A stretch of 64,000 bases of DNA from Marchantia polymorpha subsp. ruderalis. Taxonomy: Eukaryota; Streptophyta; Marchantiopsida; Marchantiales; Marchantiaceae. Shown piece after piece: positions 12,890 to 30,700 of this stretch. The translations under genes were made by a program, and so were the position numbers. The stretch covers positions 19,738,501 through 19,802,500 of the forward strand of contig AP031356.1 of NCBI GenBank assembly GCA_037833965.1, in the 5' to 3' direction. The notes below the pieces were generated by a model. It made no database searches, was not told the DNA's origin, and worked only from the letters and a program-made list of their open reading frames with translations. The stretch's first letter is position 1; the number at the start of each line of letters is the position of its first letter.

Positions 12890-14293
12890 GTTAGCAAATC
12901 ATGACAATCTGATTCCGTGCAAGGACGTGATTACAGTCGTAGTCTCCGCATAGGACGAGTTTAGCTGCACAAACTTATACATAGCCCCTATATAGGGCCT
13001 TCATAGACCCAGGCAGGTGTCATCCTGCAGTGAGCCGTTACGGAAGTTCTTCTTTTCGCTCTAACTCTACTCCTTTGGACCAAAGATGGAAGAATGTGCG
13101 GGCAGACTAACCGGGCAGGTTTTTCATTGGCACTCAGTTTTCCGGTGGAGCATCAAAGTGACTGAAGTAGATCGCTCCGCTTTCCGGCAGACGGATCTAG
13201 CGATGGACTATAAGAACATATGGGCATCCATCCGCACTCAACTATGAGGGAATCCCTATTCTCACAACCTGGTCGACGTCATACTGACGACCATAGTTTT
13301 TCACAGCAGAATTGTTCAACCGATGTTTGAAACTGTGTCGAACACCTTGAAAATGTTTCTCTTCGTGCTTTTCCCTTCTTCCCCTGCTACCTGAGCACAT
13401 GAATCCACCGGAGAATGGATCGAATAGGCAAGTCACAATTTGCCAGTTAGTCTTTCTGAATCAAGACCTGAATCGACGTATTACTTTGAAGAGAGCAACT
13501 CGGCACATTGATAAAGTCGGTGTGGATGATCCAACAGCGATGGTTGACTATGCTAGAAAAATGTCGTTTCAAACACGAGTCAGGGATAGGAGTAACATTC
13601 AAATTTTTTCTTGACTCGCTGGTTCAAAGTGCGCTGGTGATAGTTGGGGAACTCCGAGGAGAGATCTTCTTGCCGAGCAGGTGATATCTAGTACATTGGT
13701 TCACCCAATTGTGGAGTTCATGGTCTTCAAGTTTCGTGTTCAGTCCTCTACTTTCTAAATGCTGAAACCTTCAGCCTGTTTCTATCAAAGTGAAAGCACT
13801 CCTGAAATGTCCAGAAACGCGGACATTGTCACTCAGAAACTTTTGAGCTTCGATGTCTCCGGATGAATGAGAAGGGTTCTGTCTGATATGTTAACCTTCT
13901 AGGACTGACTTCGAGAGCCATATTTCTCAAGGTCTGTCATGGTGCTTCGAATTACATGGCCCGAGAACTGAAGTGCACCTTTGACTTGAGGTTCTCGGTT
14001 GGAATATAAATGCTCCTCTTGATAGCTTCTAGAGTTATTTGGATGTATCGTTGAATAGCCAGAGATCAGATAAACATATAATAGCCAGAGAGTTGAGATG
14101 TGGAGCTCCTTCAGTTTGGTTCATATTGCTGCGCAATACAAATTGTAAGCATGTCCTCATTCTGATCTAAACATTGGGTTACAGACAGGTCAGAATTATT
14201 GATCGAGACAAGCCCGCACGATTTACATTCTCTCATTCTCAAGACTCAAATTATATTTTCTTCCGTATTTTTTCAAAACTTTATTTTTTGAGT

Positions 14294-14567
14294 ATGATAA
14301 GTACCCTCTCATCTCCGAGTTGTCGAATGTGCCCATGAGCCTCATCGGGGAGCAGCTATCGAAGTCAGCAAACCGGAATTTAGAGAAGAACGAGAGACAT
14401 ATTTGTCCTAAGTTCAGGTGAATTATTTAAAACTGAAATGACACATGAAAAATTTCTGATATATAATAGGCAGACGTATTCTGCAAAGCTACTCTTATGG
14501 AACTTCTGCCAGGTTTTGAGTACATCGTCTGATAACTGGCAACTTCTGTCGGATGAGACAAAACCTG
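14294..14567. repeat. 274-bp direct duplication, copy 1
   Basis: Nearly identical in length and sequence to 15145-15418, with a scattering of substitutions and no net indel. Neither copy keeps a long open frame in common, so conservation of a protein is not indicated. The copies start 851 bp apart. Confidence 0.9.
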
Positions 14568-15144
14568 TATTTGGAACTCGCCACCCTTTTGGCTATTACA
14601 AGCCTCTGTCGAATCAGTCCTCACTACTCTCCGTACTTACTATCCAAGGTCTAACTTGATTCACTCAAGCATGCAGTAAGTTCACACAACACACATATGA
14701 CCAGAAATCTTACAGCAGATGCTTCTGCTGACTTTATTTATGTCGTCAGATATACACATGGTTCTGTGATGTAGGGTTCAGTGCGATAGTACATTGAGTT
14801 CGAGAATAATTCTCCAAATTCTGACAAAAGTACTGTATACGTCTTCCTGTTTTCGTCATGAGAGTTCTCAAGGAATATAAACAGCATAATTTGGAGGTGT
14901 TCTCTCTCATTTGCAGTTGCAAGGGTTGCATGAGCACTTGTCACCTCACTTGCATCCTTCGTTGGCACCTTCAAAGCTGTATCAAAAAAAACAAAATTAT
15001 AATCAGATATTGATCGACCGTCCCAAAATCCAAGAACGGTGATTTTATGAATGTAACGCCATGAGTATATAAGCCACCATACATGTTTACAGGTTAATCA
15101 AGCATGAATTGCAAACATGTGTCCAATATATAGAAACCGGCGGG

Positions 15145-15418
15145 ATGATAAGTACCCTATCATCTCTGAGTTGTCGAATATATCCATGGACCTCATCGGG
15201 CAGCAGCTATGAAAGTCAGCAAACCGGAATTTAGAGAAGAACGAGAGACATATTTGTCCTAAGTTCAGGTGAATTATGTAAAACTCAAATGACTCATGAA
15301 AAATTTCTGATATATAATAGACAGACCTATTCTGCAGAGCTACTCTGATGGAACTTCTGCCAGCTTTTGAGTACATCGTCTGATAACTGGCAACTTCTGT
15401 CGGATGAGACAAAACCTG
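15145..15418. repeat. 274-bp direct duplication, copy 2
   Basis: Partner of 14294-14567. It also overlaps minus-strand open frames at 15098-15412 and 15340-15525 that resemble nothing known. Flanking sequence is not duplicated, so the boundaries are sharp. Confidence 0.9.
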
Positions 15419-15980
15419 AAATCGAGGCGAATTACATATCTCGTGCGAAATCTACTTATAGAAATGGTCAGCTGCACCATCAGAGAACAAACAGATGCAA
15501 AGGATGGAGGGAGGGGAGCAGACACTTATGGCGTTGAGAGCTTGTGAGAATTCAAGTTCAGCACAAACAAAAAGTCCCAAAGTCTCTTAAACACATGCAT
15601 TCAATGTAACATAAATTAAGCATAACACCTGAATTGTACAATTAGGAACTATTGTCACAACGACTTTGTCCACTTCAGAATTCAGGTCAAGTCACTCAGT
15701 GTAGCTTTCAACCAGAAGCCAGTCTCAAGTTTAATGGTGCTCTACTTCACTGCCAACTAGAACCAGAAATCACAGCAGCAAGACTTCAGCATATAACTTG
15801 GATACTTTGCCCCCATGGTCAAAAAGCTGAAATGTACATGTGCAAATCAGCTACCACTTCTTTCGAGCTACATTGGAGCCTATCTAGGTAGAGTGGACAA
15901 AAAAACAGGTCTGAAAATTGCCATTGAAGACTTTTGTAAGTGAAACTAACCAGTATCGAAGTCCACGTACGAGTTTCAAT

Positions 15981-17785
15981 TCATCGCCATATGTTAGCAC
16001 GTCGTGTCCTCTCACCAGGTGGCTTTCTCTTGGCGCCTACATCCATGTTATCATCTGAAGAACGAGTTCTCCTATCTGTAATAACAGCAATTCAATCGCA
16101 TATATTATCATTTTGATACAACATATTTCAGTTAAAGTTAAAGCTCAAAGAAAATGCTTGGGAACCATCTTACTTGCACGTTTTTTGCCGTGATCACGTT
16201 CTGGTCTTTTGCTAAGATCCTTAACAAGAGACATCGCTGTTGCAAACAGTTCAACTTTATTCCACCACTTGTTGGCAGCAACAGCCCATTTTACCGACCC
16301 TTTGTTTTCAAGTGTGTTGACACGGATCTTATATGAGGCGTCTGCCGTATAAAGTTCGTCTGCCGTATACTTCTCTCCCCACTCCAAGAGAAGATTTCGT
16401 TTTTTTGCATCCATCCTCTTGACTTCAACCTTCGCTCCCCACTTTTCAACTTCCTGTGATATATGTACAGACATAAAAAATGGATGTATGGGCTCTACGG
16501 AACCATACATCTCTGATTCATCAAGAGCTGACTTTGAAATCTCACCCTGAAAAAAATAACAAGCACAATACTCTTAGATCATATCCAAACTGCAATATCT
16601 GTAATTGTAACATAAACATTACAAATTGGAAAATCTTTACGTCAGGAGTAAGAATGTATGACCTTTGTCCGAGCTGTCTCTTCATCTTCGATGACACCCA
16701 AGTCTGCCATGCGCTTCATTCGACCTCTCAGAACGGTTTCTCCAAGATCAAGTTTTGCTTTCCTGCCCGTTGGACTATAGAGATAATCCAGAAATTTCAA
16801 GATTATTCGTTCATTACATTCCAAAGATGGATTCCAGTTGGATTGTTCAATCCAACTGTACTTACCACAGAATACTATCCATTCTTTTGCCTCAGCTTTC
16901 AAATCCCTGCAACTGTCATCTGCACTCAAGATTGCCACAAGATCTTCCATGGCTTCAACTTCGTCAATGTCAATCTCTGACTTCTTCATACCTCGCCGTT
17001 GACTGCTCTTTCTGTTTTTGGCGTGCTCTCCCTTCACCCACTCTTGAATAGAATCTACGAACTGTGCCTTTCTCCTACAGGGATCTAGTAGTTCGTCAAG
17101 ATGATCAAAGACAAAATTTGAAAACTCTGGAATTCTCAACATGTTCCAACCTGGAAGGAAATTCTTGCATACGAGTCTCATGGCCCTCAAAATCACTGGA
17201 GGTTCCTCCAATTCTCCTATATCCTCTCCCGTCATTAGAGAATATATTTTTTGGTCGAAATACCCCTTAATAATCTAGACACACAACTCAAACTGTCAAT
17301 TCTGCAACATATATACGGTTATTGCAATCTGAACATAATAAATCTCAAATTATTTGTGGAAGTCTACTTGAATTCAATTTGAAATAAACAATGCAAATAG
17401 AAAAAAAAAACTTGCCAATAAAAGAATTGCATACCTCGCCTCGAAAGAAGTCCAACTTATCTTGCTTGTGCTTGATCCAACGTTGACAGAAATTACCAAA
17501 ATGCTTGTCACAAGAGTCAATCAACTCTTTCTTGTCAGCCTTCCTGGAAACTCCAGTCGTCTTTGGTCCAGGTGGAAGCTTCTGGGTAATTTGGAGATGA
17601 CAGTCCACATGGTCTTTCCTCCAATGCTTTTCGATATAATTTTTTTGGGAAAATGTTCCTGGGAAAGGACAACCTTGCAGTAGGCATTTCCAGTTATGCC
17701 TACCGCCCTTGGTGACGTGTGGCACCTTCGCATAGTGCCTATCCAATATCGCCTCTTCCAGTTCGCCCCCAAATACTTCCGCCAT
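15981..17785 (-). CDS. Unrecognised zinc-finger protein, four exons, beside the MULE gene
   Basis: Predicted 476-residue nuclear-type protein. Minus-strand exons are 17785-17435, 17274-16663, 16546-16174 and 16075-15981, all GT-AG with a continuous frame. The N-terminus has a C2H2-like finger, C34-x4-C39-x14-H54-x4-H59, directly after the motif KGGRHNWKC (26-34). The middle is acidic and helical without a family I can name. The C-terminus is strongly basic (KKRANRRTR, AKRKPPGERTRR), like a nuclear localisation signal. It lies about 3.4 kb from, and on the same strand as, the MULE transposase at 21151-24645. That protein has a similar KGGGTRHNW motif, and introns of the two genes share sequence. 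Possible roles are a transposon accessory protein or a host protein derived from one. Function is not assigned and the splice model is untested. Confidence 0.6.
17287..17326 (-). repeat. Shared intron module, copy in zinc-finger gene intron 1
   Basis: Forty bases inside intron 1 (17434-17275) match 21731-21770 in the last intron of the MULE gene at about 36 of 40 positions, in the same orientation to transcription. The intron ends in GTGTGTCTAG, the same acceptor sequence as the MULE intron ending at 22009. Confidence 0.75.
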
Positions 17786-18990
17786 GACCGCTCACTACAC
17801 CACTGGCTCGCAACAGGAGTTCGCTAGAGATGTAGCAGCTGGAGATATGGAAACGGTTAGGCTTATTATAAAATATATCCACATGAAATCACATTTTCCT
17901 AATGGCCTAGAACAAAGTCCATAAGATGAGATCACCTCCCTTCCAAACCTCTCAAGCTTCTAAGTTGAAACTAACAATGCAGATAAATATGCTCGGACAC
18001 ACAAAAGTACACTCTTTACAGCTTGCACTCAGATTCCACACACAGGGCCAACTGAGCTGAAAAGTGGCAAGACATATCGGGTGTTTCAAATTTCTTAATG
18101 AGAGGCTCTTGGTCTCTTAAAAATTGATCCCTTTTGATCTGAACTGGCTTTGACGTCCACAACAAGTGTCACTTGGAGAGCGAACTGATTTCGTAGCTAT
18201 TTCACATAAACTTTAAAATCATATGTGCTTTTAATAGTCAGACAGAAGCTCATGGCTGGAAGAGAAACATGAATCGATCCGCATTTGCAAAAGTGTAGTA
18301 TCAGGAGTGATTAGTCAATATAGCACAAAACATTCAACTCGAACTGAAGTAATAAATAGCATAAGGCTAATCTGTGCAGATAAAAACTAAAAGTGAAACA
18401 CAAACAGGTGATATTTGTCAGAGCATTATTAGTATAGCACACGGTTCATTCATAAATTTGTTTTGAACAATGCTTCCTTTTCTCTCAAAAAAGTTAACCC
18501 TTTTCAAAACGAAAGAGTTGAACTTATTATCCGTGGGTTGGGGACCAAACTATGAACCAATGAAGCAAGATTGCAACTGTACCTCCACGTAAGTAGTAAA
18601 CTTTTTGCTTCGCATACAGAATGGACATGCAACCTACGTGGATGCTCTCTGAAGAAAAATCAGACGCCGATGTCTACGTTTGATAACAATCTAGAAAATA
18701 CTAGATTCATAATGAAATAAGATGAGTTATATAATGTTGATTTCACCTCAGATGAAGAAAAATGGCAATAACTCAATTAGTTACGATAAACATTAGGCTT
18801 AGAGTTATCTTGGGGGCTAATGAGACAGGGTGGCAGATTTCTCGGGTTCATTAGCTAGGGTTTTAGATTTGTGTCAGGTTTAGACCTCAGACCAAAAGAC
18901 CTTCGGAACTGTTAGTAAAAGTACACAGGTGAGACAATCTCCTTACGAGTGATCCTGAGATACTAATCACACCTTTGAGTGGTAGATTGG

Positions 18991-19361
18991 TATGGAGTGG
19001 AAATGATAGTAGTGCTCCAGCAGATTTTTCGAGTCAGTCTTTCCTCTGAAGTGGTGAGTATCTATGTTAGTTTAATCTCGGTTTTAGAATCACGCATAAT
19101 ATACTTGAGGCATCATGAGCTACCTTTGAGGGGTAAACTGCTATCTTAGTTCAATCTCAGTTTTAGAATCACGCATAATATACTTGAGGCATCATCATGA
19201 GCTACCTTTGAGGGGTAAATTGCTATGGAGTGGAAGTGACAGTAGTGCTCCAGCAGAATTTTCGAGGCACTGTTTTCTCTGAAGTGGTGAGTATCTATGT
19301 TGGTTCAATCTCAGTTTTAGAATCTCGCATAGTATACTTGAGGCATCATGAGCTACTGTTA
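18991..19361. repeat. Composite tandem repeat (233-bp period with a 79-bp sub-duplication)
   Basis: TATGGAGTGG starts at 18991 and again at 19224, a 233-bp period. A shorter segment beginning GTTTTAGAATC and running into GGCATCATGAGCTAC appears three times, at 19081, 19160 and 19314. Spacings of 79 and 154 bp add up to the longer period, so one unit was partly duplicated again. Confidence 0.85.
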
Positions 19362-19579
19362 TTGGAAGATCATCGGAAGTTACTTCTCATGATTCTTTTG
19401 TTTTCCAAAATATAAATGTACAATGTGAATGAACTTCAAATGATCATTTAATCGCAATAGGTGCTGAAGACCCTTTGGCACTTGCTATTAGTAGTTTCCA
19501 CTCACTCTTACCTTCACACATGCTGTAAATAAAAATGGAGCAGAGTTCGTTTACGAGCTGACATGTTGGCCTGCTTGAT

Positions 19580-20045
19580 CGCCCTTTGCTTGTCTGCTGC
19601 TCCGGTCTCCCCTTCCGCTTTGCCTGCGCTCAATCCCGATCTGCGTATGCCCTAAAACTGCCGAACGAACAAGGAACAGTTCAGCTCGAAAACTCCATCC
19701 ACACGACCCGCATCCCGCCCCTTTTCCATTGCATGCTCACAAGGAGATTGAAAACACAGGGCAGACAAACCGCACCCGGTCCCCTTCCGCTCACCGATCT
19801 CAGATCACAAACTCACCAACCATCTAACCCTCCCACCCAACATTTAAGAATCCCTTCTAAAAACACAATCGCGCCCTGCCCCCGGCACGACGAAATTCAG
19901 CCTCGAGACACCCTCGACAAGAACAACCCTCGAGAGATTCCCGTACAATTGCCCCCCCACAGTACCCGACGCCCGACCCTCTCCGGCCACAAACGCACAC
20001 AGCACGCACCGAGGGATTCGACCACGAGAAACACAGCGAAAATGT
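19580..20045 (-). other. C-rich, G-poor block, possible 5' leader/promoter on the minus strand
   Basis: This block is unusually rich in C and poor in G on the plus strand, in contrast to the AT-rich sequence around it. A 153-codon plus-strand frame (19586-20047) has the low-information composition expected from the base skew and is not called as a gene. A G-rich transcribed strand in the minus direction would fit a promoter or 5' UTR for the zinc-finger gene, with an intron in the leader. That is inference. Confidence 0.3.
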
Positions 20046-20077
20046 AAAGCTAGGACCTACCTAGCTAGCGAAAATGT

Positions 20078-20150
20078 AAAACTACCATATATGTAAAGCT
20101 AGGACTGAAATCTACGATTTCAGTCCTAGCTTTACATATATGGTAGTTTT
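20078..20150. repeat. 73-nt perfect hairpin (35-bp arms, 3-nt loop)
   Basis: The arms 20078-20112 and 20116-20150 are exact reverse complements around the loop TAC. The upstream sequence 20036-20075 contains further partial copies of the arm (AAAATGTAAAGCTAGGAC). A second, shorter inverted repeat built on AATATCCTATT follows at about 20156-20184. Candidates are a foldback or MITE remnant, a palindromic recombination product, or a hairpin RNA precursor. Confidence 0.95.
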
Positions 20151-21150
20151 GAAAAAATATCCTATTCTCAAAATAGGATATTATTTCTAGGATATTATAT
20201 CATACTTGTCAAAATAGGTCCGATTGCCAAAATATTAACAACTTTTTTATCATCTGAAATATCATCAATTGTGATTCCATACCCACCTTTGTCTTTAAAA
20301 AATGTTTTACTTACTTTTGCCGGAATTGAAGCATATGAGATGAATATACACAATACAGTATAATAATGAACATCAAAGTTTTAAGAGATACAACCATGAC
20401 AAGTATAGAATGAATTTATCTCCAACCTCAACATATTGGCAATACAACATGTGGGATTTTACTGTGTACGTGACTTTTTTTTCAAAAAAGTTTGTATTTT
20501 TTGAAAGATGCAACGAATGAATGTCATCGCTACTTACGTGCAATGCTCTGAACCTCATCATAACAAGTGTACCCAAAAATTCTATGGTCCAGTCTAATAG
20601 ACTATTGTGGTCAGTCATTGAATATAGAGGTGAAGTGCATGTCCAAATATGGATAGGATTAATTCCTCAACTTCAAACAGGAGTTTTTTTTCCCATTATT
20701 TAAGTAAATCTATATGCAATGAACAAGTAAAGTTCTGAGGGTCAATATTCAAGCAAGATCACACATTATAAGCTCAAGTCTTGCAAGATCTAACTGGTGC
20801 TGTAAGTTACTTCTCATCCTTGCACATTACACTGCCTCCACCTCATGGAATTCCAAAGACTTTTGACGAAAGAATATCAAGCTGTCACATCCAATCAAAA
20901 GTTGGATCTCAATAATATCAAAAAACGCAGAATCAAGTTTCTTAATTTTGAAACGTCATCTTAGCAACATTGACTGTCATCATTGAACAAATAATTTACA
21001 CACATAATTTACACAATTGTGTACCGTGAGTTCATGGTAAATTTCCAAACTGTAATCAGCGCATGCACATCAGCTAAATGTGGAATTGGACAAAATGGTT
21101 TCATTTTACTATGAAATTGGAACAACATTTATGCATCACAAGCAAACAAC

Positions 21151-24100
21151 TTAGGGAGAAAGAGTCAAGTCGATCGTCTCTCCTAGAATTCTAGCTTGTT
21201 CCTCTTTACGTTTTTCTCTATTTGCACTTGCCTGAAGGAATTGCTTGATCAGACTTCGAGTTCTTTTGGCCTTCTGCCTGCCCTTTCGAAGTCTGAGCTG
21301 TAAAGCTCCTTCTTCTACCTTTCCTAAATCTGCGGTAGGGGCTCTAAATCTTTCTCCTGTTTCAAGTAATCTCTGTGGCTTAGGACATTTAATGCCTGCT
21401 AATTTTTCAAGCCAACTCAATTTCCTGAATGATGAGCTAGGCTTATCTAGCATGGATGTACGCCACATGTCTGCAACAGGAAGTATTCTACCAGTACTCC
21501 ATGCTTGGTGAGACTCCTTGATACGTCCAATGCAATGCCGGAGCTCTAGCTCTCCCACTTTCAGCATACTAGGATTTTCATCAAAAAAGTCCTTCAGCCA
21601 TACCAATTGAGTATGAAGAACACGCTTGATCTTTTCTTCCTCCTCCAGATCTGTTGGCTTCGATGCTTTCTTTACAGGGCTGTCCGTATCTGATAACACA
21701 TAGAACATGTACGGTTAGGTAGTTTCATCACTCAAACTGTCATTTCTGCAAAATATATGCAGTTATTGCACATTAAACTGACAGTTTGAAGTACCTTCTG
21801 TAAGGTTGAAGGTGTCATGGCAATCATCTTTGACTTCAATATCTGCAAGTTCTCTTCGAAGGACTGGATCCTCATTGAAATCATATATCTGTGATGAAGG
21901 ACCTTTATCAAAGAGCTCTTTGATTCCACCTCGTATTCCACCAAACCGTATGCCCAAACAAATGCGGATGTTGGTCTCGGAATATCCTTTCCTTCGTAGA
22001 ATAAGAATCTAGACACACATGAATCAAGCAGTGTTAATAAAAAATACACATACGACCAATATATGCAATCAAAAACAGAATTACAATCTGAGTTGTACCT
22101 GATGTTTGCAAAAGTTGCCTTGGAGTGACCAGAAGCACTCGCATGCATACTTTTCTCGTCTCCAATTTACAAGATACCTTCTATTTGGCTTTGATGTAGA
22201 GCCCACTAATGCGGGGCCTGCATAGCCATGAGGCCAAGTAACAGGGACAGTTAGCATAGATCTTGTCTTCATGATCACAGCAATCACACGTTCATCTTTC
22301 TTCTTATTTGGAATAAAGCCAAGTAGCTTCTTCTGATCTTTGTACCAAATTCTCATTACAAAATCCCCTAGCAGACCATATACTGTATGATCCAAACGTT
22401 GCTCATGTGCATTCCTGCGCCAGCCATAAAGGAAATCCTTCATGTGTCCATGCATTGATTCCATAGCGTTGTTGGTATCTTGATTGTTACGACATGTCTT
22501 CCTCCGTTCATCACGAATCCACTGACCTGAATTCCAAAACAGTAAGTTAGATGTGCTTGTGGAAGTTCATTAAGCAAAAAACAACTTCCAAAATGTAATA
22601 ACTTCAAATATAATGCACATGTTACAAACTTACACTTACCCATACAAGGTTCCCATTCTGTTTGAAAGTATTTCACAAATTGTGGCTCAGAGAGCTGAAA
22701 TTTTTTGTAAAATAACAGAAGCTTCATCGCAGCAGATCTTTCCACATCAAATTCTTCTCCATCAGCAATTAATGTGCTTCCAAAGCACAGGTCTTCTAAA
22801 GCAGCATTCATAATAGCTCTCTTTTCATGACCACTCACAACCTCAATCAATTTCTTTGTCCATGCCTTTCGAACATGATATATGCAAAGAAATACAGGGA
22901 TATGCGGAAAAACAATGTCCAGGGCAAGTCTCTCATTGTCAGCACAATCCGTCATGAAGCACGAGGGCATCCATCCAGGGATATAATGTTGGGCCATCTT
23001 CTTCACTGCAGATAATAAATCCACCAGATCTTCTGTTTCTTCTTTTTCGAGGAATCCAAAAACAGTAGGATGTCCGTGTTCATATTCGTCAAACACCATC
23101 AGGGTGTACAGTGGATACTGCATTGCAAAAAATGAAATAAACGTATCAGTTTGCTGCTAGCAATCGTCTACAAAGTATTCATCTTCATTAATACTAAGCT
23201 AAACCTGATACAAATGAATGATTCGCTATTTTTATGTCTTGATAATTTAGACGTGATCAAGGTATATAAAACAACATATACATCACACATTGAGACGTTC
23301 AATAATCTCTTACAGGATTGGTTAAAGCTCCAAACTGTCATTTTTTCAAATATCTTGCAGAGATTGCAAATAGTAAGGTAGAATATACATAATCATGGAA
23401 GCCTGATGATAAAAACATCAAAATGTGGTAGTAGAATATTACCTTATACTTCTGCGTGCCATGCGTTCCATCTATAGCAACACAACCTCCATTTCCATGT
23501 TTTAGCAACCAATCTAGGAGCAAGGGTCTTGTAACAGCAAGCCTCAATGGTTTAAATGGATCACTTTTTGGTGCCTGATACAAAACAACTTGAGATGAAT
23601 TTGCTTTCATCCATAATTCTGTGCTAATTCTATCATTAGCATGCCTTCTCCAAGTTTCTTTGTCCAGTTCCAATTTGATATTATACACATCGGCAGATGT
23701 GATATAATGATCTCTAATAGGGGACCCTTGCACATAGCCTAAGCGCTGATGATTTTCAAACAGTGCTTTTGCAGCACGCATGAGAATTTGTGGAGGAGTT
23801 AAACCTCTTCTTAACTCGCATTCAACCCACTCCCTGGCATAAGAACGTAGAAAATATTAGACAACGTGCTTGTGTAGTGTCAAAGTTTTACAAACTGTAA
23901 TAACAACAAACTTATTGTAGATATTACAAATATGACGGGAGATTGACTGTGAACGATAAACAAATATATTGAAAATGTAACAAATATGCCGTTACCTGCA
24001 TTCAGAGGATAAATTGCGCGCCATTTGAGATGGCAAGCCAACACTATCTGAACACGCTGTGCCATGACAAGCTACACCTGCAGCATTTACGTGTCTTCTA

Positions 24101-24645
24101 TGCTTGTATATCAATTTTGTGATTCCTGGTGGAATGTGATCATTAGACAACAGTTTAATGGCACTAAACCTGCACTGACAGCCCTTGTGATGCGAATCAT
24201 GATCTAGTCTATCCCTGCTGCCAGGACCAAATTTTGCCTTCGTTGATGGATCTTGAATAAAATTCGATGAAAGCATACTCTTCTTGCCCCTTTCTGGAGT
24301 ACCATACTTGCAATAATACATTGCATACGATTCCCAATTGTGCCTAGTACCTCCACCCTTGTATGAGCAACGTGTCACAAATTCTGTCTTCGCATCACTA
24401 TGACAAGATCCCTCTCCCGAAACAAAATCGTGAAGCCTCGAGCTTTTGATGTAGGCCGTCCCATTTGACCAATTCAACATTAACGAATTGAAAGGGCCTT
24501 CATAAGGTGGGTCCTGCACAATCCATCCTGCCTCCATGCTGTCACCACACCTACAAAAGCACCTGAAATGACAAGAAAAGTACAAGCACGAGCTCTGGCA
24601 CGAGCTCCTCAAAGCACTGACACTAGCACCCAAAAGCGACGTCAA
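21151..24645 (-). CDS. Mutator-like (MULE) transposase with SWIM zinc finger, six exons, apparently intact
   Basis: Predicted 899 residues. Minus-strand exons are 24645-23996, 23833-23443, 23117-22640, 22526-22099, 22008-21795 and 21689-21151, with GT-AG sites and a continuous frame. Cys/His-rich N-terminal region with KGGGTRHNW (96-104) and GCQCRFSAIKLL. The MULE DDE core is present: D338 in AIDGTHG, D404 in FMTDCADN (followed by CIYHVRKAW), and E529 in NNAMESMHGHMK. A SWIM finger CxCx8CxH has C635, C637, C646 and H648. The C-terminal tail is basic. Such proteins cut and paste MULE DNA in the nucleus, or act as transcription factors once domesticated, like the FAR1 family. The start could instead be M36 (24540). 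No terminal inverted repeats or 9-bp target duplication were found, so mobility is unknown. No stops or frameshifts were seen. Confidence 0.85.
21731..21770 (-). repeat. Shared intron module, copy in last MULE intron
   Basis: Lies inside the intron 21794-21690 and matches 17287-17326 of the neighbouring zinc-finger gene at about 36 of 40 bases. Confidence 0.75.
23328..23369 (-). repeat. Shared intron module, diverged copy in second MULE intron
   Basis: Lies in the intron 23442-23118. It keeps CAAACTGTCATTT and a GCAGnnATTGCA block in the same order and orientation as the other two copies, with small indels. Confidence 0.5.
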
Positions 24646-26114
24646 AACGACGAGCTGGAGAATATTGATATGATTCTATTTTCAAAAAACCCTAATCTTT
24701 GCCGCTTAAAATTTCGTCGCCTCAATTTGTTATCACCGTTTCATTACAAATATTACAGTCTGAATATTAGGGATTCCATCTGAGCTATCCCTCTTGCAGT
24801 TCAGTTTTAGTTCTTTTTCCCGCAACGTTCCACGACACGACTGCGATCATTGTTGCGGCGTAGATCAACTGCGATCAACGTTGCGGCCTCTACATGGTTG
24901 CCGCAAAGTGCCCTCCCCGTTCCCTCCCCGCAAAGTGCCCCGCCTCCCCGTTCCCAAAACTGAGATAAAATCCGGCTGATCCGGGGCAGCCCGAAGGGAG
25001 GATGAAGAAAGAAAGAAAGAGGAGAAAGAAACTGGGATCCCTGACACCTGGCAGTACGGCCGTTTGTAAAAGTTTGTGCAACTAAGCGAGTCGCTCCGCA
25101 TAGCCCTCACCGAAACCCGGAGAGAGCGACGTAGAGGACAGTTGTACTGCAAGCCAGTAGGGCCAGTTGCAGCAGCCGGTGGTCCGGACGCGCCGGGCGG
25201 TCGGGATCCGGTTGGTGCTCGGGTGTAGAGGATCGAGCAGATACATGAGCAGCAGCGGACGTTTCCCGTGACGTTGTCGACTTTCGGCGAGCTCTCTCGA
25301 AGGGCCAGCCCGAGTCTGTCGTTTGCACCACATTGATTCGAGTTTGAAAATAAATGACTACGGACGAGCGACGAGCCGACGATGCGCTGGTTCGCGACCG
25401 TCTGTAGAGGCGTCTGAGCTGGCGGCCCCGGTGCAAAAGCAAAGCAGCGCAGTACGCATTCCATTCCTTTTCTGAAAGCGCGTCAGTGTGTCCCGGATAG
25501 ATGGTGCCTGCATTCGCCCGAGCTTCGTTTCGCTCTCTCTCCTTCTCCACTGCTCGAAGCCTCGCCTAGCTCGCCTTTAGTTCTTGCACCCGAGACTCGA
25601 CTCGACTCGACTCGACTCAGCCAGAGGAGCCCGCGGCACGGGAGCAATGCACATAGGAAGGTTCGGCATTGGGTGCGTGCAGAAGCACGTCCCTCCATTC
25701 GCCGAACTCGCGCAGACATTGTGATCCTCGAGCTCGCCTTTAGTTCTTGCACACGAGACTCGCCTCGACTCGACGAGGCCAGAGGAGCTCGCGGGACGGG
25801 AGCAATGTACATCGGAAGGTTCGGCATTGCGCGCGTGCAGAAGCTCGTTCCTCCATTCGCCGAACTTGCGCAGACATTGTGATCGTCGCCTCCTCACTTT
25901 CTCCTCGCTTCGCTTAGCAGCCCATCGCGAGCGGAGTCGATTCGAGCCGAGCTTCGCCCTCGACGAGAAGACGCAAGAACGCACCGCCCGCCGACGGCTC
26001 CACAGCGCAATGCGGAGCAGACTCTTCGATCGGAACGACATCGAGGAGAATATTTGAACAACGCGGGGAGCGGGAGAAGCGATTCATCGAGAGAATTCGA
26101 AGGGAGGCGCGACG
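24646..26114. other. GC-rich intergenic region between divergent MULE and pectinesterase genes
   Basis: Two divergently transcribed genes face away from this region, so it should hold both promoters. It is much richer in GC than the left side of the window. Overlapping open frames on both strands are compositional. It contains a 163-bp-period duplication, listed separately. No clear TATA box could be assigned to either gene. Confidence 0.5.
25568..25884. repeat. Tandem duplication upstream of the pectinesterase gene
   Basis: Copy 1 (25568-25726) and copy 2 (25731-25884) start with AGCTCGCCTTTAGTTCTTGC and end with CAGACATTGTGATC. They differ by scattered substitutions and by a CTCGA pentanucleotide run that is longer in copy 1. 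The duplication lies 231 bp before the pectinesterase start codon. Confidence 0.9.
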
Positions 26115-27794
26115 ATGGGCGCTCTGGCGTGGGCAGTCGTCTGGTGCTGCTGCCTGTGCTCGACCGTCGCGGGCGATTGGCACCCTCTGCCGGTCACCCG
26201 AGATTCGGATTCTGCGCCATTCGAGTCCGCGGACGCTGGCGCGACGGCGACTGTGGCCGCGGTCTGCCAAGCGACGAGGTTCCCGGTGGAGTGCAGCACG
26301 GCCTTGGCAGCGGACGCGCGGTCGGCCAGCGCGAATTCGCCCGAATTCGCCAGAATCGCGTTGGACTTGGGAGCTACGGCGTCGACGAGGGACCTGGCCG
26401 CGGTGCAGCTGATGGCCGCGGGCGAGGCGCTGGACATCAACGCTACGGCGGCCGCGGCTGTGTGCGCGGAGTCCCTCGACTACGCGGTTTCGACTCTGAC
26501 CACGGCCCGCGACTCTCTCCTGGCGTCCCCGATCGAGGACATTCAGTCCTGGGCCAGCGCCGCGCTCCAGTTCCAGTACGACTGCTTCTCGGCGCTGGTG
26601 AATGTCCCCAGTCCCCCGGCGGATCTGGCAGCCACCGTGCTTCCGGAGGTGAATTCAACCATGGCGCTCATCAGCATCGCCTTGAGCATCACGGACGCGC
26701 TGGCCTACTACGGCTCCGATGCTACTCTGTGGTTACCTCCGCCGGAGCAGAGGCCGACGGACCTCAACGCCGTCTTGCTCTCGACTAGCCCCCAATGGGC
26801 CTCCGAGAACGGAGGCTGCGACTGGAGCGCGCCCATCGACATCACGGTCCCGGACGTGACAGTGGCGCTTGACGGCACCGGGACGTTCACGTCCATCCAG
26901 CAGGCGGTGGACGGCGCGCCCGCCTTCAGGTCCGTCATGTACATCATCCACATCAAGGCGGGGGTGTACTCCGAGAGGATCCGAGTGGACAGGAACAAGA
27001 CCATGCTCATGTTCGTGGGCGACGGCGCCAACCAGACGGTCATCACCGCGAGCAAGAGCGCGCTGGAGCCCGGCGTGGTGACGTACCAGACCGCGACCGT
27101 GGTTGTGGTGGGCAAGGGATTCGTCGCGCGAGGAATCACGTTCCAGAACACGGCGGGCGCTGAGTCCCGGCAAGCCGTGGCCGTGCGAGTGGACGCCGAT
27201 CAGTCGGCGTTTTACGACTGCATCTTCGATGGCTTCCAGGACACTCTGTACGCGCACGCCGGCCGGCAGTTCTACAAGAGCTGCACCATCCGGGGCACCG
27301 TGGATTTCATCTTTGGAAATGCGGCGGCCGTCTTCGAGGACTGCCAGATTCTTTTGCGGCTTCGGGCGGGGAATCCGACCAGCGTGGTGACGGCGCAGGG
27401 TCGAACTGATCCGGGCCAGACCACGGGGCTGGTGTTCCAGAATTGTACCGTGTCGGGGACGCCCGAGTACATGGAAGCGTTTCTGGCCGAGCCGACGGCG
27501 CATTTGGGATTTCTCGGGCGCCCGTGGAAGCTGTTCTCGCGAACCGTGTACGTCAATTCGTTCTTGGACGCCGTGATCGAGCCCGAGGGCTGGATGCCGT
27601 GGAACGGCGAGTTCGCGCTCAGTTCGTTGTTCTACGGCGAGAGTGGCTCGTCCGGCCCCGCCGCCGATACCACGTCGCGCGTTTTCTGGTGCAGCCCGCT
27701 GACCTTCGACCAGGCCGCCTTCTTCAGCGCGGCCAACTTCATCCAGGGCGCCAGGTGGCTTCCGTGCACCAGCGTTCCGTTCACGTCGGGGTGA
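26115..27794 (+). CDS. Pectin methylesterase with N-terminal inhibitor domain
   Basis: Secreted cell-wall enzyme that removes methyl esters from homogalacturonan. The gene is a single exon of 559 residues, the usual length for type I plant enzymes. Residues 1-20 form a signal peptide. The PMEI prodomain spans about 44-205 and has its four paired cysteines (C51, C60, C117, C157). The catalytic beta-helix spans about 245-550. Active-site residues are visible: Q353, Q375, D376 (FQDTLYA), D397 (GTVDFIFGN) and R469 (LGRPW). Between the domains I do not see the usual RRLL/RKLL-type processing site; the linker reads LWLPPPEQRPTDLN. The gene is much more GC-rich than its surroundings, and codons mostly end in G or C. 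The ATG at 26115 is directly followed by the hydrophobic signal segment. Confidence 0.95.
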   Translation: MGALAWAVVWCCCLCSTVAGDWHPLPVTRDSDSAPFESADAGATATVAAVCQATRFPVECSTALAADARSASANSPEFARIALDLGATASTRDLAAVQLMAAGEALDINATAAAAVCAESLDYAVSTLTTARDSLLASPIEDIQSWASAALQFQYDCFSALVNVPSPPADLAATVLPEVNSTMALISIALSITDALAYYGSDATLWLPPPEQRPTDLNAVLLSTSPQWASENGGCDWSAPIDITVPDVTVALDGTGTFTSIQQAVDGAPAFRSVMYIIHIKAGVYSERIRVDRNKTMLMFVGDGANQTVITASKSALEPGVVTYQTATVVVVGKGFVARGITFQNTAGAESRQAVAVRVDADQSAFYDCIFDGFQDTLYAHAGRQFYKSCTIRGTVDFIFGNAAAVFEDCQILLRLRAGNPTSVVTAQGRTDPGQTTGLVFQNCTVSGTPEYMEAFLAEPTAHLGFLGRPWKLFSRTVYVNSFLDAVIEPEGWMPWNGEFALSSLFYGESGSSGPAADTTSRVFWCSPLTFDQAAFFSAANFIQGARWLPCTSVPFTSG

Positions 27795-30700
27795 CGGACG
27801 GACGGACGAACCTTTACCCCTCCGCTGCCTCTGTGACGTGCACTGTCGACGATCCGAGGATTCATTCGCCGTCGTGAGGAGAGGGCGAGGTCGAGGAGGA
27901 ATCGGGAGCAGAGATTTGCCAGTGGCAGAAGGATTTCGGCGCAGGGAGGCGAGAATTCGGAGCCAAATTCTTGCAGAATCTATCGAGCCCTCCCTAGCTG
28001 GTGGCCACTGTCACTGTCACCGCTGACCCAATTGGACTCTTGGCGGAGAAAAGTGGGGCCTTTGTCGTCTAGGCCCGAGCATGGCCCACCGCGAGGAGGG
28101 GGATGGCGCCAAAAGGAAAGCTCGTGCGCCGTAGAGACTTTGTGAACATTGCACATCCACGAGGTCTTCTGTGGTCGTCTGCGGCGGACAGATAGGTTCC
28201 ACACGACGACCCGATTCAAGGCGAGAATCGACTGGATTGTGACGCGGCCCCACATTCGTTGACGTGAAGTTGACGAGGCAGCATGTCGTCGATGGAAAAG
28301 CGGTCAGTGCTCGATCACCGACGAAGCTCGAGTGGACTTGTAGTTGTAGGAGTAGGAGTAGGAGTAGTCTTGTAACCCAGAGCTTGGTTAGGGTAGATGG
28401 ATGTCGATGACTCAAGCTGGGAAGGGGAGCAGTCAGTGCTCGATCACCACCAAAGCTCGAGTAGACTCGCATAATTAGTGGTATTCTTGTAGTCCAGAGG
28501 TTAGTTTGGATATTTATTCAATCATTCATTGGATGCCCATATGCGTCCGTCGGGCAACTCCTCAGGAGGCGCGTATTCGCATACGCTTCTTCCCAAATCA
28601 CGAGTGCCCCGAACTTCATCGTTCCTTTAAACTTGTTCATCTGCACATGAGGTTCTCGTACCACATTATTATAATGAAGTCACCAATTGTGACCGCTTTG
28701 TCCACAGCCTGACAGGAAGCAAAGTCGCTTCTAGCGTGAACAAATCGGAACCTTGTTGAGTTTTTCTCCTATATTCGATCTGGAGCGTTTCCTTATGATA
28801 AGTGCTATGGCTGGACGCTACGATACACTGCCAGAAAAAGGAAGCCGCATTGATCTCAGTTCACGTGTCGTTGGAGCGAACTTCTCCTCTTGGACTCCAT
28901 CGCCATTGATGGCATCATCTTTATCTCAGGCTGTCGTCAATGTCATACGGGAGTCTCAAGTCAAATTGTGTAACCGAACCGTCTAATCGTCTCAGCGTGT
29001 CCTCTGGACTGTGGACCCACTGTCGTTGCGGGCGTAAGTCCCATAGAAATAACAGTGGCTTCACCAAAGGACACCATCTCCTGCCGATGGTGGGCACAGT
29101 TGAAGGCTGGGATTATAAATGCTTTGTCATCTGCTCCAACTGACGTTCGGCATAGCCGAGGATTCCTTAGTCGATTTCCAGAAGTCGTATGCTATCCAAC
29201 AATGTGTCGTAATCACTCTGAAAGGCGATGGTTTTCCTTCTGCTGCAAATTTCAGGCGTCTCACTCACAGGCAAAGCAACTCCCATGGATCCCAGATTGG
29301 ATGTGACCGGTCCTAAGGGAAGCTGTGTTGAAATACTTGACTGACCCCCATTCTTAAGAAAAGCTCACGCGGTTTTCTTGATCATTATCGATGAGTAATC
29401 ATCATTGTCTCCGAGATATATCATCCAGATTTTCTACTACGAGACAATTCAAAGTCCCAGCTTGAGGGGCCCAATCTCGCTGGCGCTCATCCCGTTGTCG
29501 ACCCCTTATGCGCTTGCCCTCGTCACACACCCGGTCATCTACACAGGTGTAAGCGGTAGGCTTAGCCTCATGCTGGTCAACCGTCCGAAATTAGCCTGAC
29601 ATAGATTGCATCCTTCCTTCGCAGTTGACTTGACACTATACTCGTTACTAGAATAGATGGTAAGCACATGCAGTCCATTCCATCCGCTCTGTTGTGGACC
29701 CGCAGTTCAGTATCCACCTCATTGCGACCGTCGCATTTTAGCAGATCCTGCCATTGCTCTGGATGCCTGCCAGCGGAGGCAGTCCGTTTTTGGAGTTGAA
29801 TTCGACGACTCTTCCGTTCCCTGCTGTTGCAGAATTCCATTCGGGTGGAGGTCAGAATTGTGAACAAGACGTTCGCAATCGTTCTGAGTATAGTCTGCAG
29901 TAGTTTCAACAGGCAACGCTGAATCCATCACAAGCTGGACTGAATCCGAATTTGGTATGGAGGGGAGAACGCTTCTGACATTAATATACTCTCCAGTTCG
30001 AGTCGGGTTTGCTGGTTGGGTAGAAGAGCACGAAAGCATGCGATGCTCCGTCAAATATTGTCTCGTCGACTTTGACTCTGAAGGCGAGCTTCAGGAAGTT
30101 CCATCGATTGGCGTCTGTACATGTCTTGAAACCACAGCCACGCATGCCGGATCAGAAATTCTGCCTGACCCAACAGAACTGCCACATCTTCATGTTCCGA
30201 ACACCCACATATCCTCCTCCTTCGGTGCATTGCTCAGAACTCCAGATAGAGGCAATTTTCTGAAGGCCAGCCAACGACACTCATGGTGTTGGAAATCGTC
30301 GGCGTGCTTTTAGATCGGATTGATACTAGCTTCTGATGTCTGATTTCATGGCCGCACTCCTGGACACTGCCCTGCTGCTGTAGGTTCATGGACATCAACA
30401 TCCATGTTGATTACCAGGTCAATTGACCGTCGAGCCTCTTCTGCAGCACAGACCACTTCCTCTGGACCGCTCACTCGAGATTACCTTCAAGATCACTGAT
30501 CTCAGATCAGTGACTGTTGCTTCGAACGAAAAGGCATGCGTCAGTCGAAGTCACCTTCTCGATCGATTCTAATCTCGGTTATGGCCAAATCACAACGACC
30601 GCGTCATAGAAAATCTGCCAATGCTCTCAAATTTCAATTCCGCTCTACCGTACGTACTTCACCAGTGAGGCGGTTATCGTTGTCGAGCGTTCGAGTGCCG

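Follow-up and report, generated by a model that had tools for sequence, protein, structure and literature searches.

The window analysed here is a stretch of 64,000 nucleotides from Marchantia polymorpha subsp. ruderalis (contig AP031356.1, positions 19,738,501 to 19,802,500), and it contains one complete Mutator-like element (MULE) of 12.1 kb with two genes inside it, one for the transposase and one for a second protein of 476 amino acids (Table 1). An initial annotation of the window had placed two intact, co-oriented genes here and had proposed that they form either an undescribed two-gene MULE or a domesticated pair. The coordinates of the element, its genes and the other features discussed below are collected in Table 1.

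Table 1. Features of the two-gene MULE in the window (position 1 is the first nucleotide of the window)
Feature	Position	Strand	Remarks
Complete two-gene MULE transposon	12953..25093	-	12,141 bp; homology with other copies starts and stops here; terminal inverted repeats and target site duplications
Left target site duplication	12944..12952		9 bp, CTCCGCATA; from reading of the end
Right target site duplication	25094..25102		9 bp, CTCCGCATA; from reading of the end
Left terminal inverted repeat	12953..12981	+	29 bp; 23/29 matching the right repeat (counted by eye)
Right terminal inverted repeat	25065..25093	-	
Second gene	15981..17785	-	476 amino acids; 4 exons: 17785-17435, 17274-16663, 16546-16174, 16075-15981
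MULE transposase gene	21151..24537	-	863 amino acids; 6 exons: 24537-23996, 23833-23443, 23117-22640, 22526-22099, 22008-21795, 21689-21151
Dyad site, transposase gene intron 1	23897..23927	-	
Dyad site, transposase gene intron 2	23337..23367	-	
Dyad site, transposase gene intron 3	22595..22625	-	found by the profile, outside its building set
Dyad site, transposase gene intron 5	21739..21769	-	
Dyad site, second gene intron 1	17295..17325	-	
Dyad site, second gene intron 2	16592..16622	-	
Dyad site, second gene intron 3	16078..16108	-	found by the profile, outside its building set
Captured host DNA, kinase-gene locus on contig C8	17823..18290		98% identity; begins 38 bp upstream of the second gene's ATG
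Captured host DNA, C2:9585851-9587522	18287..19535		99.6% identity; two pieces
Captured host DNA, C9:17752819-17753324	19538..20043		99.4% identity
Palindrome at the junction of cargo and element	20078..20150		35-bp perfect arms

Extent and recent movement of the element

The two ends of the element, GGACGAGTTTAGCTGCACAAACTTATACA and CGACTCGCTTAGTTGCACAAACTTTTACA, are imperfect inverted repeats flanked by a perfect 9-bp duplication of the target site. They lie 556 bp past the ATG of the transposase gene and 3.0 kb past the stop codon of the second gene, so that the terminal repeats and 9-bp duplications which the initial annotation had suggested looking for outside the pair are indeed present. 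The homology of the copy C5a with the window spans 12950 to 25093. Inverted repeats with a perfect 9-bp duplication, different in each copy, are found in all seven copies whose ends were read (the window copy, C5a, C4a, C3a, C6a, C9a and C7b). These features agree with those of the Mutator superfamily, for which a target site duplication of 7-12 bp is given (PMC9168764), and the element is a member of it.

The genome searched comprises 241 Mb in 9 contigs. One exon of the second gene has at least 40 matches in it at 95-100% identity (DNA search; 40 of 68 candidates scored), and one of the transposase gene at least 40 at 93-100% (40 of 90 scored). C5a differs from the window copy by four substitutions and one 1-base indel, the sixth difference being the base after the element end, and at least one of these two copies has therefore moved very recently. 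A domesticated pair is rejected on these grounds, as the element is multi-copy and recently moved. The element is apparently autonomous. No Rfam family matches anywhere in the window at the gathering scores.

The two genes and their products

All the introns of the transposase gene are of the GT-AG type and its reading frame is intact. Its 3' end had been placed correctly in the initial annotation; its start had been put at 24645, and the first in-frame ATG is at 24537. The predicted protein carries the MULE domain PF10551 (63.8 bits; Pfam cut-off 27.6) and a ZSWIM RNase-H-like domain (38.5 bits; cut-off 27.2). Residues D302, D368 and E493 fall in located sequence motifs, and may represent the DDE catalytic triad. 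A comparison of the protein with the PDB gave no relative. In some copies (C4:10599110, C5:4636350, C6:391983 and C4:22406595), the open frame around transposase exon 3 measures 358 codons as compared to 238, possibly reflecting an altered intron.

The second gene has the four exons, GT-AG introns and intact frame assigned to it at the outset. Its product carries a C2H2-like pattern, C34-x4-C39-x14-H54-x4-H59, matches no Pfam family at the cut-off and has no relative in the PDB; a search of viral contigs with exon 2 gave no match. When exon 1 was sought in eight stretches fetched upstream of divergent relatives of the second gene, four matched; three of these four, together with two closer relatives, retain the complete set of four finger ligands.

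The initial annotation had also noticed a KGG-(GT)-RHNW motif in both proteins. The letters are present in both, while the two proteins are not measurably similar, the best BLASTP E value being 0.19, with 1.8 for the RHNW stretch. KGGRHNW is kept in the two closer relatives of the second gene, and KGG is replaced in all four divergent ones (KVN, NGS, EGS and NGS) with RHN or LHN kept. In view of the BLASTP result and this replacement the motif is weak evidence, and homology of the two proteins through it is not supported.

Pairing of the genes and selection on the second gene

A protein search with exon 2 of the second gene returned 82 matches (80 of 80 candidates scored), which merge to 67 loci in this genome. 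At 33 of them a match to transposase exon 3, the only exon used in the genome-wide MULE search, lies upstream on the same strand within 15 kb, as against a random expectation of 0.2 on average and 3 at most in 1000 draws; this count excludes 11 of 143 MULE rows, those with the weakest matches (E above 0.0018). With any MULE match within 20 kb, the number is 34 of 67 (one at 18.5 kb), and the nearest match is always upstream and on the same strand. Homologues of the second gene thus repeatedly adjoin a MULE, as had been anticipated. The initial annotation had regarded widespread homologues without a MULE neighbour as evidence to the contrary, and this picture holds in part: 34 of 67 loci have no exon-3 match within 15 kb upstream, of which 11 have the 5' terminus of the element upstream and another is directly preceded by MULE exon 1. 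Among the ends listed (40 of 156 candidates), 23 of the 67 loci have neither MULE exon 3 nor an element end nearby.

In seven of the 11 loci that retain the second gene and the 5' end, this end is 4.24-4.66 kb from exon 2, and parts of MULE exons 1 and 2 remain in the one that is readable, L039. In three further loci (L013, L014 and L015), one common deletion has fused the transposase gene at window 21404 with the tail of the second gene at 16021, leaving a truncated MULE gene attached to the last 41 coding bases of the otherwise missing second gene. These three form a MULE-only subfamily.

The association also extends to divergent relatives. In an old pair at C4:12.81 Mb, exon 2 pieces that are 59-79% identical are directly preceded by MULE exon 1 (80% identical in DNA), and another old relative (exon 2 pieces 62-75%) has a MULE 9.2 kb upstream. 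The presence of a MULE beside these two relatives shows that the pairing is old.

When exon 2 of the window was compared to 12 relatives (50-94% amino-acid identity; synonymous divergence, dS, up to 0.83), the ratio of nonsynonymous to synonymous divergence (dN/dS) was 0.23-0.49 in every case, with Fisher P values of 8e-13 to 0.013 (all 12 at or below 0.013); stop codons were omitted, and the 12 values are not independent as the window lineage is common to all. As judged from these comparisons, exon 2 of the second gene is under purifying selection. Many of the copies carry frameshifts or stops; of seven full copies, those of the window and C5a are free of any stop or indel in both genes. The enclosing terminal repeats and target site duplications, the fixed order and strand in the 33 paired loci and the purifying selection support the proposal of the initial annotation that an undescribed two-gene MULE is present, with the second gene in an accessory role.

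Dyad sites in the introns

A related unit is present once per intron, on the sense strand, in seven of the eight introns of the two genes (Table 1), MULE intron 4 having a weak version at best in a de novo motif search. Sharing of sequence among the introns had been pointed out earlier, and it is stronger than was then claimed. Intron 1 of the second gene and MULE intron 5 are identical at 36 of 41 nucleotides (score 62), as compared to a highest score of 35 among 15 intron pairs over 300 simulated sets. In a leave-one-out test with a 40-base unit, all five seed sites outscored every position of the background, which consisted of ~52 kb of the window outside the element, on both strands. The next two best positions of the profile in the whole element fall in two further introns, with scores of 31.4 and 22.1 against 15.4 for the best background position. 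The de novo search reached 277 bits, as compared to 184 +/- 5.8 and a maximum of 204 in 100 shuffles (16 standard deviations), and agrees with the profile sites in six introns; its starts were taken at every second position in the real set and at every third in the shuffles. Sharing of 7-mers among the introns is by itself not significant, since 39 of 500 simulations reached at least five introns.

The places matched by the profile are matched on the other strand too, shifted by a fixed distance, and this reveals a dyad. The consensus of the seven sites, ~31 bp long, is GTAATATCTGCA-TTAAATT-TGCAGATATTAC followed by AGTTTGG; its arms are complementary at 12 of 12 positions, and among 5000 consensuses of random intron positions the arm match did not exceed 10. 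Pairing of arms within a site (8.29 of 12) is not better than between sites (8.55), the observed sum being reached in 4281 of 5040 permutations, which gives no sign of RNA covariation. Since the arms pair without such covariation, and both resemble one half-site as in the DNA site of a two-fold symmetric protein, the unit looks like a putative protein-binding site.

A feature acting at the level of RNA, that is, a splicing signal, a hairpin or a relic of introners, would also account for a unit common to the introns, and all seven strong sites are intronic, in sense orientation and single in each intron; parts of the unit resemble 3' splice sites, and that of intron 3 of the second gene ends at the real acceptor. 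The lack of covariation speaks against such a feature and led to the rejection of a hairpin, and the fold energies of the seven units are within 1.8 standard deviations of shuffles. Furthermore, the distance of the site to the acceptor varies from about 2 to 219 nucleotides. Information drops to background beyond ~45-50 nucleotides and the rest of the introns is unrelated, which argues against the introns being copies of one another; introner-derived introns, for which homology over most of the intron length is expected, were rejected on this account. Taken together, an RNA-level explanation appears improbable. MULE intron 5 (21739-21788) also holds an inverted CAGTTTG core, and by eye its RNA could form a stem of ~10 bp.

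The block in intron 1 of the second gene is kept in four old relatives at 31-36 of 41 positions, as compared to 71-77 of 103 in the part of the intron upstream of it; this comparison left out L057 and L061, which have no homologous intron. A strict 18-mer pattern has 142 matches in the genome as against seven for the reversed pattern. Among the 97 matches listed with their letters, 86 are at genes or ends of the family and 11 elsewhere; as the 18-mer was built from the sites, the family excess is there by construction and the outside count alone is informative (whole-genome control 7). With 11 of those listed outside the family, the dyad unit is not a common feature of host introns. In six of six older copies of the second gene among the matches listed (exon 2 at most 93% identical), the 18-mer of its intron 1 equals that of MULE intron 5.

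The sites might alternatively be bound by the transposase or a host factor as a transcriptional brake, the second gene acting elsewhere. Such autoregulation would fit the occurrence of sites in both genes, four of the seven being in the transposase gene; against it, no clear similarity of the sites to the terminal repeats is seen by eye, and we give it little credence. A strong single half-site of the dyad is present outside the introns, in antisense orientation, at window 24745 in the 5' region of the transposase gene.

Captured host DNA and other variable parts

In the spacer between the two genes, only some blocks are common to copies whose identity elsewhere is about 97-99%, and much of its length differs among them. 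Sequence matches indicate that the spacer of the window copy is largely captured host DNA, from three source loci (Table 1). The C8 locus, in which two reading frames match protein kinase at the Pfam cut-off, is the sole source shown to hold a gene. No element ends were found in the three source stretches examined (10, 2 and 0.8 kb). Other pieces of the same C8 locus are present, in the same order, in C3a, C4a, C6a and C9a and not in C7b, while C4a carries 1.45 kb matching C4:16.2 Mb at 99%. C3a, C9a and C7b share a different sequence at the place where the C8 piece starts in the window copy, close to the ATG of the second gene, and this upstream region was therefore exchanged in the window lineage. 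The host DNA was presumably captured during gap repair, a route that has been proposed for Pack-MULEs, and the palindrome at the edge of the cargo looks like repair-type filler.

As the element so readily captures host DNA beside the second gene, this gene could itself be passive cargo, a captured host gene in a Pack-MULE-like MULE with no function for the element. The purifying selection across dS up to 0.83 and the recurrent pairing with the MULE gene run counter to this explanation, and no relative was identified as clearly a host gene, though at 23 of the 67 loci neither exon 3 of the MULE nor an element end among those listed lies nearby; we consider it highly improbable.

The 3' region of the element holds a direct duplication of ~274 bp (14294-14567 and 15145-15418), about 93-94% identical, with no open frame of at least 120 codons around it. 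A second variable stretch, 13219-15851, differs among subfamilies of the element; pieces of it recur elsewhere in the genome at 77-90% identity, and it may be another captured or repeated sequence. Beside the insertion lie a 158-bp tandem repeat (window 25568-25888) and a GC-rich stretch (64% GC at 26001-28000) with an open frame of 578 codons (window 26058-27794).

Proposed role of the second protein

We propose that in this apparently autonomous two-gene MULE the transposase moves the element, and that the second product is an accessory protein which binds DNA, is probably located in the nucleus and has one C2H2-like finger. Selection would maintain the second gene because it helps copies of the element to spread. 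Its protein would most likely act in trans on the DNA of the element through the 31-bp dyads in the introns of both genes, so that the element stays expressed or demethylated in the manner of the VANC proteins of Arabidopsis VANDAL elements. On this view, the introns would be the non-coding sequence that persists as the spacer is replaced. We assign this reading as a whole a probability of roughly 0.45. As for its parts, it is nearly certain that the element is a two-gene MULE, and probable that the second protein binds DNA; that the intron dyads are its sites is a tentative proposal, for which they are candidates at somewhat less than even odds, and anti-silencing as the outcome is doubtful.

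Several observations weigh against this proposal. The five seed sites of the profile were picked by their common CAGTTTG, and when the first 28 bases, which exclude it, are used alone, the share of the background scoring as high is 0, 0, 1e-5, 5e-5 and 6e-4. The de novo search put the site of intron 3 of the second gene at another position, and the occurrence of sites only in introns could point to a role in splicing. The C2H2 match of the second protein is below the Pfam cut-off (14.9 bits against 27), as is the SWIM finger of the transposase (13.9 against 19.6), and single-sequence structure models are poor, with mean pLDDT (predicted local distance difference test) of 44 and 51, and are unsuitable as search queries. 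Where identity is at most 83% (15 loci), a MULE upstream was detected at two, through exon 3 at one and through exon 1 at the other, and the exon-3 search detected none at the remaining 13. In recent copies both genes are nearly neutral (0.86 for the second gene and 0.96 for the MULE gene; the copy L042, at the same place as C3a, was left out). Near-neutral drift is expected in a young family after copies are inserted, and the test on recent copies alone was set aside for the more divergent relatives used above. Derivatives that lack one gene, in whole or in part, have multiplied as well, so that neither gene is needed in cis; such derivatives are presumably helped in trans.

Comparison with known elements

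MULEs with two or three genes are already known, namely MuDR, Mutyl and Hiun/VANDAL (PMC6446971) and barley Abermu (PMC9168764). The closest known kinds are MuDR and VANDAL/VANC, and we read the present element as a new two-gene variant, which is not of the MuDR type in gene layout and not a VANDAL by its terminal repeats and domain. As in maize MuDR, with mudrA and mudrB, the transposase gene of this apparently autonomous MULE is accompanied by a second one. The MuDR genes are oppositely transcribed, with terminal repeats of ~200 bp serving as promoters (PMC9168764, PMC8224964), unlike the two minus-strand genes, the 29-bp terminal repeats and the internal second gene seen here.

The resemblance to MuDR bears on another explanation, in which the second protein would be a MURB-like integration helper acting with the transposase at the termini, the intron sites being irrelevant to it. 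The maize gene mudrB is reported as required for integration (PMC8224964, PMC6446971), and the recurrence of the second gene beside the transposase gene would be in line with such a partnership. The co-orientation of the genes, as opposed to the opposite transcription described for MuDR (PMC9168764), and the common dyad sites, which a helper of this kind leaves unexplained, make it unlikely, although less so than autoregulation or an RNA-level feature.

The proposed binding of intron dyads is closer to VANDAL21/Hiun of Arabidopsis (vanA, vanB and vanC), which is likewise a MULE with extra genes. Its motif is dispersed in introns and other non-coding DNA in the same orientation, the VANC21 motifs lying in introns of VANB21 and VANC21 and upstream of VANA21 (PMC5735166), and the sense-strand site in seven of eight introns is comparable. 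The likeness is incomplete, and this also tells against a VANC-like role, since the VANC21 motifs are 9-mers that occur densely within tandem repeats, as compared to the single dyad per intron found here. The terminal repeats of VANDAL elements are lost or short and degenerate, and present in some relatives (PMC6446971), while those of this element match at 23 of 29 positions. As judged from Pfam, where the 476-residue protein matches no family at the cut-off, it lacks a VANC-type domain, which further separates it from VANDAL/VANC.

Barley Abermu (ORF1, ORF2 and ORFR) is also a large MULE with extra open reading frames, one of them co-oriented with the transposase (PMC9168764); it is an element of barley and other flowering plants. 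In carrying several host fragments, from C2, C8 and C9, the element resembles Pack-MULEs, which are usually small and non-autonomous (PMC9168764), whereas the transposase here is intact and the fragments lie between two intact genes.

Among the titles and abstract beginnings listed in searches of open-licence papers, none names this element. Table 1 of a 2019 survey of MULEs has flowering plants as the land-plant hosts, and the text of the survey contains neither the word bryophyte nor Physcomitrella (PMC6446971). It is conceivable, if rather unlikely, that self-recognition has arisen here apart from VANDAL/VANC: a protein of unknown family, from a MULE of a possibly early-diverging land plant, would bind a 31-bp dyad in nearly every intron and shield the gene bodies from silencing, while the spacer is freely replaced by host sequence.

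MULE accessory genes are few in number, and most of them lack an explanation. The element is a clear case of an apparently autonomous MULE carrying several host fragments between its genes, and its two near-identical 12.1-kb copies, together with a second gene that is under selection and a candidate target site in the introns, make an accessory function directly testable.

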